Shown here: piece after piece, positions 30,615-33,879 of the stretch
How the letters are laid out: the number at the start of each line of letters is the position of its first letter
Position numbering within the stretch: position 1 is the first letter of the stretch
Assembly (NCBI GenBank): GCA_029204225.1
Contig: CM055111.1
Coordinates: 42,412,815-42,476,814, forward strand
Source: Diphasiastrum complanatum
Lineage: Eukaryota; Streptophyta; Lycopodiopsida; Lycopodiales; Lycopodiaceae
Reading direction: 5' to 3'
DNA: 64,000 nucleotides
The notes under the pieces: model-generated
The model's input: the letters and a program-made list of their open reading frames with translations, nothing else
Databases searched by the model: none
Told to the model about the DNA's origin: nothing
Made by a program: the position numbers and the translations under genes

Positions 30615-31613
30615 ATTGTACTCATACGCATCTTGGTTTTGAAGGGGGGAGAGGCTTAACCAAAGAAACTTTGGATGCTAAGCTAACCAACTAGGCTAAT
30701 CTAGTTGAATGAATTATACTCACATGAAATGAGTCGGCTCCCCATTTATTTTGGTTGATAGGCTTGGGGTGAATTGGAGACAAATTAATGTGCCAATTTT
30801 TCACAAGTTGCACTACCAAAGTGGGCTCCAACCCAGCCTTTTCCATGAATTTAATAGTAGGGAGTATTTCATGGCTTTGCAGGTGAAAAAAATGGACTGC
30901 ATCGTTCTAATGGGATTTCATGTGGGGACTCTACAAGTAAGCCACGTGGCTTTCAAACAAAATTAGCAAGCCTTACCATTGATCATGACATGGTTTATTC
31001 TCATAGGAAAAGGCATACTAAGTTTCATTTCATCGTATATTGATTCCTTATACTTCCTCTTAACCTATATTGAATGATAATAGGACGATATAACAACACT
31101 TTGTAATGTAGCTCCCTTTTATAGCCTCACCTTTGCAAAAGCAAGTCTATTTGGGATGAGCGTATTTCGCACCATGACTAACAAGTAAAATATGGTGCAA
31201 CAACCATTTAATAGTGAGGATGGGTAATACCACCATCTCTCCAAGATAGTATTATATTTCTCCACCCTTAGATCTTTGGGAGCCAACCATTGTCATTATA
31301 GTGGTGGCTTTCTCTCATCTATTTGTTTGTGTTGGTCAAGTCTTCAGCTTAGTCAAGTCTTCGTCTTCAACTTGGTCAAGTCTATAAGAAAGTTAATGTT
31401 AAATAAAGTGCTTAAAGTTTTGAAGACTTAACTTGAAATCATTATAGATGCTAAAGTCAACCATGTGCAATTTTTTGTGGAAGCTTCAAACATTACATTT
31501 ATTTGGTCTTGAACTCACACACTACTTTTATGAAACATGTTACCTTATAAAAAACAAGAGGAAAAAAATGTATTTTATAAATAAATAAATATACATTTAT
31601 ATACACTTTTTAA

Positions 31614-32185
31614 GTGCATGTATTGTGCACATTACTTGCATTGATGGTGGTGGTTGCGCGCGCGCGCGCGCGCGTGCGAGAGAGAGAGAGAGAGAGAGAG
31701 AGAGAGAGAGAGAGAGAGAGAGAGAGAGAGAGAGAGAGAGAGAGAGAGAGAGAGAGAGAGAGAGAGAGAGAGAGAGAGAGCAAAACCAACAAAGAAATAA
31801 AAACCTCCTTGGACAAAATAAAAGCCAATAGAGAAAGAAAACCCTCGTTGGACAAAACAAAGGAGATCTATATGACTATGTAAGAGAGAATAGAATACTC
31901 ACATCGATTTGCTTTGTTTTGTTCCTCTCTTTCCTTTAATGAAGGGATATTATTTCTTCGTTGGCTACTCTCTCTATCTTCTCTTACAGAGTCACATTTG
32001 TTCCCCCCTCTGCCCTTTCAATGAAGAAGGGTTTTGTTTCTTTGTTAGCTCTCTCTCTCTCTCTCTCTCTCTCTCTCTCTCTCTCTCTCTCTCTCTCTCT
32101 CTCTCTCTCTCTCTCTCTCTCTCTCTCTCTCTCTCTCTCTCTCTCTCGCCACCACCACCACCATTGTGCAAGTAATGCACAACCT
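31614..32185. repeat. Nested inverted repeat with GA and TC arms
   Basis: Outer words gtgcacattacttgcattgatggtggtggt (31626-31655; given only as a position guide) pair with accaccaccaccattgtgcaagtaatgcac at about 32150-32179. Then (GC)n (31655-31674) and (GA)n (31678-31780) face (TC)n (32049-32146). Inside, aacaaagaaataaaaac pairs with the complement of ttttgtttctttgtt. This forms a roughly 570-bp imperfect hairpin inside the foldback element. Confidence 0.7.
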
Positions 32186-32471
32186 TATTCAAGGAATCCT
32201 TATTGTGCGTCCAAAAGCTGTAATGCCTGATTTGCTGGAAATTAAGCTCACCAAGATTTTTCTTGCACATTTTGATCATTGAACCTCTTTAGGTTCTATG
32301 TCTACTCATCTAATACCAACAGGAATCACAGAACTGATTATACCGAACTATTTGAAGGACCACATCGACCTTCCGGCTAATCTTCGTCCAAGGACTAATG
32401 GGTATCCATTCCTATTCTTTTCTACATTCGAATGTCATGCATGCAGTTAAAAAGCGCATACATTTACAACA

Positions 32472-32517
32472 ATATATATATATATATATATATATATATA
32501 TATATATATATATATAA
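32472..32517. repeat. (AT)n microsatellite
   Basis: About 22 AT units within the foldback's central region. Confidence 0.95.
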
Positions 32518-32604
32518 CTATAAAACATTTTTCTCTCTCTTGTTGTATATATTACAATTTTAAGGTCTCACAAAAAAGTAGTGTATGGGTAGGTTTAGGA
32601 CCAC

Positions 32605-32775
32605 GGAAATGTATGATGGAAGGAGCCGGGCATAAGCCATGCCCCGTAAGGATTTCCAAAAAAATTTGGGTGAAGCCCGGAGGGGCCGAGCCTAAATTTT
32701 TTTGGAAAGCCGAATTGGGCAGAATGGCCTTTGCCCGGCTCCTTCCATTGCGTAATGCATACTTGAAATTTTTTC
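32605..32775. mobile_element. Small hairpin MITE-like element
   Basis: The two halves pair: atggaaggagccgggca (32615-32631) against tgcccggctccttccat near 32733-32749, and tttccaaaaaaattt (about 32654) against aaatttttttggaaa (about 32694). It lies in the foldback's loop region. Its class is not determined. Confidence 0.65.
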
Positions 32776-33037
32776 AGAAGCACATTACGAAGCATAATAG
32801 GCAGTTTTGACTTTTACTGACCAACACAAATGTGCCACCTGTACGGAATCCATACGGACGGGCACAGACAGGCAGAAAAAAAAAGCAAAATCTGCCTTTG
32901 AAAAAAACCCACGCATTTTTTGCTTTTTAATTTATTTGAAAATGGGCATAATATGCAACAGGTATCCATTACGTATTGTTTAAAGCTTTTTCACCCTTAA
33001 CATCTATCTTGAATTCAATAAGTCTTCAATGCTTTCA

Positions 33038-33129
33038 ACACTTTATTCCACATTAATATTTTCATAGACTTGGCCAAGTTGAAACACTTTATTCCACATT
33101 AATATTTTCATAGACTTGACCAAGTTGAA
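33038..33129. repeat. 46-bp unit, two tandem copies in the foldback right arm
   Basis: The block acactttattccacattaat ... catagactt ... ccaagttgaa occurs twice with one base change (tggcc / tgacc), offset 46 bp. The left arm has a single copy, so the duplication arose after the arms formed. Confidence 0.85.
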
Positions 33130-33879
33130 GTCTTGACCACGTCGAAGACTTGACTGAGCAAATTTTGAGCCGCCAATGTAGCGACAATTGTTGCCTCCCA
33201 AATATATGAGAGTGGAGAGATATGATACCATCTACGAGAGATGGTGGTATTACCTACCCTCATTGTTAGATGGTTGTTGCACCATAATTTATTTGTTAGT
33301 CATGGTATGAAATAATCTCATCTTAAATAGACTTGCTTTTGCAAATGCAAGGTTGTTAAAGGAGCTACCACACAAGGTGTTGTTAATCTTCCTCTATCAT
33401 TAACCTGTAAAATCACCGCTCTAAGATTCCATTAGAAAGATGTAGTCCATTTTATTCACTTGCAAAACCATGAATCATGCCCTACAATTAAAGTCATAGA
33501 AAAGACTAGGTTGGGCCCATTTTGATGGTGCAAATTGGCACATCAATTCCCAACTTATCCCAAGTCTACGGACCAAAATAACTGAGGAGCTAACTCATTT
33601 CATATGGGTAAAAATTTTCCAACCGAATTAGCTTAGTTGGTTATCTTAGCATCCGAAGTTGCCTTGGTTCTAAGGTTAAGCGCTCCCCTTTAAAACCGAG
33701 ATGCATATGTACTCGAGGGGTGCCATAGCCCCTTGGAGGTCATTCCACCGGGGAAAGGTCTTCGAGGGTAACCCAAGGTGGAAGAAAGACTTGATCAAAA
33801 TAATTAGAATTTTGGGAAATAGGAAAAGCAAAAGCATCCGTGTGAAAGGAGGCCAAATTGAGCCATTTTGGGAGTCGGT

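Follow-up and report, generated by a model that had tools for sequence, protein, structure and literature searches.

Long inverted structures in genomes are known from several sources. In yeast, foldback inversions are inverted duplications that arise from foldback priming at breaks (PMC10622511), while the Mutator/Foldback elements Tm1 (PMC3169594) and Tetris (PMC4079207) are multi-copy elements with target-site duplications (TSDs) that are mostly 8-10 bp. In maize, the inverted duplication Mu killer carries a partial copy of a transposase gene and silences that gene (PMC3440606), and gene-proximal inverted repeats of Arabidopsis give rise to 24-nt siRNAs (reviewed in PMC12595863).

The palindrome described here lies in a window of 64,000 nucleotides, by which we mean the whole stretch of DNA that was analysed (C20:42,412,815-42,476,814 in a 1.74-Gb assembly). 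The plant origin of the window is evident from its protein families, which include a plant U-box/ARM protein, the start of a DCD domain, further DCD stretches and Copia-type reverse-transcriptase fragments. The palindrome resembles the yeast foldback inversions in that local sequence has been copied in inverted orientation with little or no spacer; however, the yeast model runs from the break to the chromosome end, whereas here about 1.2 kb of plant DNA is involved, the event is old and decayed, and its mechanism is one that we infer. Long inverted arms, the lack of coding sequence and internal short repeats are shared with Tm1 and Tetris, but the core of this palindrome is found at one locus only and has no independent TSD. 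Like Mu killer, it is an inverted duplication adjoining a gene and could give hairpin RNA, although part of a gene was duplicated in that case and no gene was duplicated here; like the Arabidopsis repeats covered by the review, it sits within 3 kb of a gene, but its arms have diverged (~81% identity). The Arabidopsis repeats and Mu killer may thus serve as possible functional analogues only. We consider the locus to be real but ordinary: most likely it is intergenic DNA with repeats in it that was doubled in inverted orientation and has since decayed, apparently present in a single copy, with one old, one-off local inverted duplication as its probable origin.

The outer inverted homology (30.62-31.5 against 32.96-33.71 kb) is not in doubt and was recovered by BLAST within the window with E values of 5e-68 and 2e-53. 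The outer arms align over 705 columns (gaps left out) with 80.6% identity, 83 transitions, 54 transversions and a K2P distance of 0.23, and their local alignment score of 722.5 compares with a maximum of 195.5 among 100 mononucleotide shuffles. The original prediction had described a foldback element with arms of 0.75-0.9 kb that are reverse complements over hundreds of bases; this complementarity is borne out, the outer limits agree within about 10 bp, and the foldback shape with its inverted arms is where it had been placed. Two parts of that description need revision, as the arms continue to the centre of symmetry (Table 1) and the structure is probably not a transposon.

Table 1. Features of the palindrome and of the neighbouring gene, in window coordinates.
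Feature	Position	Strand	Remarks
Left SINE 3' TSD	30612..30626	-	13/15 identical to 5' copy; contains TGTACTC (30617-30623)
Left arm (L)	30623..31879	+	~1.26 kb; both TSDs of SINE and of MITE kept
Left SINE copy, tRNA-derived	30627..30709	-	A-box and B-box-like motifs
Left SINE 5' TSD	30710..30724	-	Pairs with 30612..30626
Left-arm-only stretch	30939..31072	+	Either gained by L or lost by R; not listed elsewhere in genome
Left MITE-like copy	31154..31317	+	8-bp direct repeat TCTATTTG at 31146-31153 and 31318-31325
(GC)n and (GA)n tract, left arm near tip	31655..31781	+	Pure GA at 31678-31780
Centre of symmetry, near 31,887	31880..31894	.	15 bp unaligned
Right arm (R)	31895..33709	-	1.8 kb, of which ~0.6 kb right-arm-only insertions; homology ends ~4 bp past SINE 3' end
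(CT)n tract, right arm	32049..32147	+	Partner of GA tract
Second right-arm-only stretch	32183..32440	.	Part 32252-32437 is a dispersed repeat
High-copy repeat insertion, ~365 bp	32608..32973	.	Right arm only; left part is the 32616-32748 hairpin
Right MITE-like copy	33155..33322	-	3' direct repeat lost
Right SINE copy	33621..33705	+	~4-6 bp of 3' TSD left
First coding exon region, NRP-like gene	34449..34967	+	Stop-to-stop frame from first ATG

Homology between the arms is found again past a later insertion, where L 31,504-31,633 aligns with R 32,603-32,431 with a score of 50 (40.6 without the (AT)n tract; the best of 382 random pairs reached 25.4), and at the centre, where L 31,788-31,879 aligns with R 32,046-31,895 with a score of 30, albeit with large gaps (the best of 600 random pairs reached 16.8). 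Identity in five arm segments, 939 columns in all with gaps left out, was 0.801 (296 columns), 0.811 (396), 0.829 (123), 0.875 (32) and 0.804 (92), an evenness that is flattered by the choice of segments from local alignments and by the large gaps needed to align the centre. With this reserve over segment choice, the similar decay across the five segments fits one doubling event. Because the homology reaches the centre, the GA/CT hairpin belongs to this palindrome as its tip and is not a separate nested hairpin. Two nested hairpins had been proposed for the middle; the first is this tip, and the second (32,616-32,748) forms an end of a dispersed repeat that was inserted later. The GA tract (103 bp) and the CT tract (99 bp) are corresponding tracts of both arms near the tip, and both are pure and near-equal in length though the surrounding arms are only ~81% identical, which may reflect either independent expansion or exchange between the arms.

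A tRNA-derived SINE makes up the outer 85 bp of either arm, as seen in an alignment of 18 genome rows with the two arms. These copies have in common a core, GGCTCAGTTGGTTAG...GTTCAAGCC, which resembles the pol III A and B boxes, and a shared 3' end near GATGCA. Of the 18 genome rows, 8 are flanked by exact repeats of at least 10 bp and 13 by exact repeats of at least 8 bp, the frequencies in random pairs being 0.4% (of 500) and 6%, although three of those 13 rows have in common a 9-mer for which SINE copies lying end to end may be the source. With its dispersed copies, common 3' end and individual TSDs the SINE is, judged by these features, a real mobile family. The same exact-repeat test gives 6 bp for each of the arm SINEs, the left-arm duplication having two mismatches: on the two sides of the left SINE stand TGTGAGTATAATTCA and TATGAGTACAATTCA, which are identical at 13 of 15 positions, and the proportion of 20,000 random pairs that match as well is 0.00035. 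A comparable repeat was not found on the 3' side of the right SINE (6/15 identical), and past the SINE end the arms are unlike each other, with a score of 5 that is reached by 98% of 3000 random pairs.

A second dispersed element within the arms is a MITE-like segment of about 165 bp that occurs alone at many places in the genome. The best 40 of 595 candidates gave 41 listed matches, three of them at the locus itself, and 20 of the 38 other places were aligned with the two arms, solo copies being present among them. Its terminal inverted repeat was read by eye only. The left copy is flanked twice by TCTATTTG with 8 of 8 positions identical, where an 8-bp repeat is seen in 0.9% of 5000 random pairs; an exact repeat of at least 8 bp is listed for 5 of the 20 genome copies, some of these repeats lying off the ends and two of the copies being near-identical. 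The SINE and the MITE-like repeat, dispersed as they are elsewhere, occupy homologous positions in both arms, which argues that they were inserted before the doubling, and that the left SINE and the left MITE-like copy each have their own TSD likewise indicates that both predate it. As both of these duplications are kept there, the left arm looks like the older copy.

Whilst the long terminal inverted repeats are those expected of a foldback or long-TIR Mutator-like element, the ends and the copy number of the structure bear on whether it is one. It would then be a low-copy, non-autonomous foldback DNA transposon that had taken up a SINE and a MITE in its arms of more than 1 kb and had inserted once with a short TSD. 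Such an element would account for long inverted arms in which a coding domain was not found, for short tandem repeats within the arms, and for the presence of TGTACTC at both outer ends (at 30,617 and 33,708), this being the sole direct repeat of at least 5 bp within 20 bp of both. However, TGTACTC on the left is itself part of the TSD that belongs to the left SINE, and 8.4% of random flank pairs show a 7-bp match, so the repeat is weak evidence for a transposon; a flanking TSD of 8-10 bp was not found for the whole element, only these 7 bp at its outer ends. Furthermore, the left SINE TSD continues beyond the point at which the right arm stops, so that the arms have no shared termini.

Genome searches with whole arms were swamped by SINE and MITE matches, and a query trimmed of both (30,715-31,150) was therefore the more informative. 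It returned two candidates and three matches, of which one is the query and the other two are pieces of the right arm (76 and 81% identity), and no further copies of the core are listed from the 1.74-Gb assembly, although copies at or below ~76% identity could be missed. As the right arm was listed at 76%, the search is able to see a copy of that identity, but its sensitivity has a limit, since one whole-arm query (best 40 of 398 candidates scored) left out the right arm that another query listed. The centre (31,781-32,048) matched only itself, as did a right-arm core query (33,340-33,610), which also missed the 76% identical left arm. Five matches came from the inner left part (31,326-31,645), namely the query, two places in the right arm and, on contig C2, two short stretches of 55 bp (95% identity) and 71 bp (79%), so that a small part of the left arm also occurs elsewhere; the 55-bp stretch at 31352-31406 is far closer to C2 than one arm is to the other. 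No exact-pattern copies were found in viral and prokaryote collections, an absence that says little given the nature of these collections.

Genome copies with target duplications had been named as a check on the element; in the genome queries the core is listed at its own locus only, the termini are SINE sequence and the 7-bp repeat lies inside a SINE TSD. With no further core copies listed from three genome queries, we consider the foldback transposon unlikely, and as neither a TSD of its own nor dispersed copies were found the locus is not filed under Mutator/foldback elements. A transposon bounded by TGTACTC as its TSD was rejected on the same grounds, the dispersal of the SINE, the SINE's own TSD and the single-locus core.

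That the arms are instead oppositely oriented copies of a single dispersed repeat, each inserted independently, had been named as a case that would refute the foldback element. Their constituents, the SINE and the MITE, are indeed dispersed, and a Copia-like pair at 39.3-41.5/49.5-51.7 kb of the window may exemplify that kind of arrangement. The fit is poor, since collinear inverted homology spans the SINE, the core, the MITE and the inner sequence at similar divergence right to the centre, and the SINE-MITE core is found in the two arms only, barring many copies below ~76% identity; we regard independent insertion as extremely unlikely. A retroposed RNA, copied from left-arm sequence ending at the SINE 3' end and landed nearby in inverted orientation as the right arm, would explain why right-arm homology stops ~4 bp from the SINE 3' end, as reverse transcription of a SINE is expected to begin there. 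It would not predict homology that runs nearly spacer-free to the symmetry centre, as a chance landing should not do so, and no direct repeat of more than 5 bp was found between the outer end and 32,944-32,983, the two sites compared, so that retroposition too appears very unlikely.

A single local inverted duplication, the most likely origin, agrees with what is found: the arms are collinear in sequence that is not listed elsewhere, have diverged to a similar degree along their length and are separated by a small spacer. In this scenario about 1.2 kb of intergenic DNA, already with the SINE, the MITE-like repeat and probably a GA microsatellite, would have been copied in reverse orientation beside the original with hardly any spacer. 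Foldback priming, template switching or a similar event of repair or replication could have brought this about, and the right copy would have ended ~4 bp past the SINE. Both copies would afterwards have decayed (K2P ~0.2), and the right one would have gained two dispersed repeats. The anatomy, the similar divergence, the order of nested insertions and a core without a further listed genomic copy are observed and support this duplication. Against it stand a breakpoint within ~4 bp of the SINE end, which a random break does not explain, and the 7-bp direct repeat that does occur at the outer ends, and the limits of the genome search, the two matches on C2 and the choice of segments described above weigh against it as well. 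The wider lesson is that an inverted duplication of repeat-rich DNA can mimic a large foldback transposon, a plausible TSD included, and that the discriminating tests are the dispersal of the arm core and the nested elements' own duplications.

Of the two right-arm-only insertions, the larger was delimited by an alignment of seven genome copies with the window, which placed its ends at ~32,608 and ~32,973. The repeat occurs throughout the genome: the best 40 of 2144 first-look candidates were scored, and near-full-length rows (self excluded) are 88-91% identical. It contains a strong hairpin of 133 bp (the fold of 32590-32800 gives a z of -10.55), and the sequence at its right end, CAGGTATCCATTACG, appears in other copies as its reverse complement next to the hairpin. 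The repeat looks as if a hairpin had been joined to a MITE, and on contig C15 two copies of it lie in tandem, 9 bp apart. For the dispersed part of the other stretch the best 40 of 918 candidates were scored, giving 42 listed matches with 72-100% identity, self included.

The structure had been described as lacking a transposase, and this was confirmed by a Pfam search of its six frames (stops as X), in which no match with E up to 1 was to a transposase and all, the best with an E value of 0.0012, were below the curated cut-offs. A captured gene fragment of the Pack-MULE type in the middle was set aside, as Pfam domains above cut-off are absent there. A miRNA was likewise rejected, the Rfam MIR408 matches scoring 29.8 and 25.3 bits against a gathering score of 64 and spanning the GA/CT tracts. 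ARAGORN (bacterial setting) found no tRNA genes.

The neighbouring gene had been read as NRP, and an NRP-like (DCD-domain) reading frame is present. Its first ATG is at 34,449, with the palindrome 740 bp upstream, and a Dev_Cell_Death (DCD) domain starts at 34,830-34,895 (18.4 bits, under the cut-off of 27.8). Further DCD stretches lie at ~45,322-45,426 (frame 51.7 bits) and 45,672-45,821 (18.8 bits), and none was found in the three plus-strand frames of 34,800-44,700; the domain is split by an apparent intron of ~10.4 kb (34895-45322) with Copia-type reverse-transcriptase fragments. NRP is a stress and cell-death gene.

A capacity to form hairpin RNA had also been suggested, and it is upheld as far as the computed folding of the joined outer arms. 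This gives -791.5 kcal/mol with 592 cross-arm pairs (-779.6 and 586 for the other strand), against -348 to -365 kcal/mol and 37-101 cross-arm pairs in three mononucleotide shuffles, so that a read-through RNA could be a Dicer substrate. If transcribed, the palindrome could give a long but imperfect dsRNA, with perfect pairing over ~99 bp in the GA/CT tip only, and siRNA-directed methylation could be attracted next to NRP. Were siRNAs made, a one-off rearrangement would have created a regulator beside a stress and cell-death gene. The palindrome is nonetheless most likely inert, and a real effect on NRP is unlikely. That it is a functional hairpin-RNA or siRNA locus, which regulates NRP or silences SINE/MITE families in trans, seems improbable: the joined arms do fold far beyond the shuffles and gene-near inverted repeats yield 24-nt siRNAs in Arabidopsis (PMC12595863), but these arms share ~81% identity, exact matches between the outer ones do not exceed 21 nt, and no segment stands out as conserved save one of 32 columns. 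It is more improbable still that this single-copy duplication acts both as a cis hairpin-RNA or methylation switch on NRP and as a source of trans siRNAs against the SINE/MITE families.

Finally, other repeats were seen in the window. A Copia-like pair at 39263-41541 and 49481-51660, in opposite orientation with about 91-92% identity, has one copy within the long NRP intron and the other past the DCD exons. The pair, which is longer than the palindrome pair, has a K2P distance of 0.055 (against 0.23 for the palindrome arms) and perhaps represents two separate insertions. Furthermore, a 148-bp unit is present in two tandem copies with 89% matches at 19650-19956.
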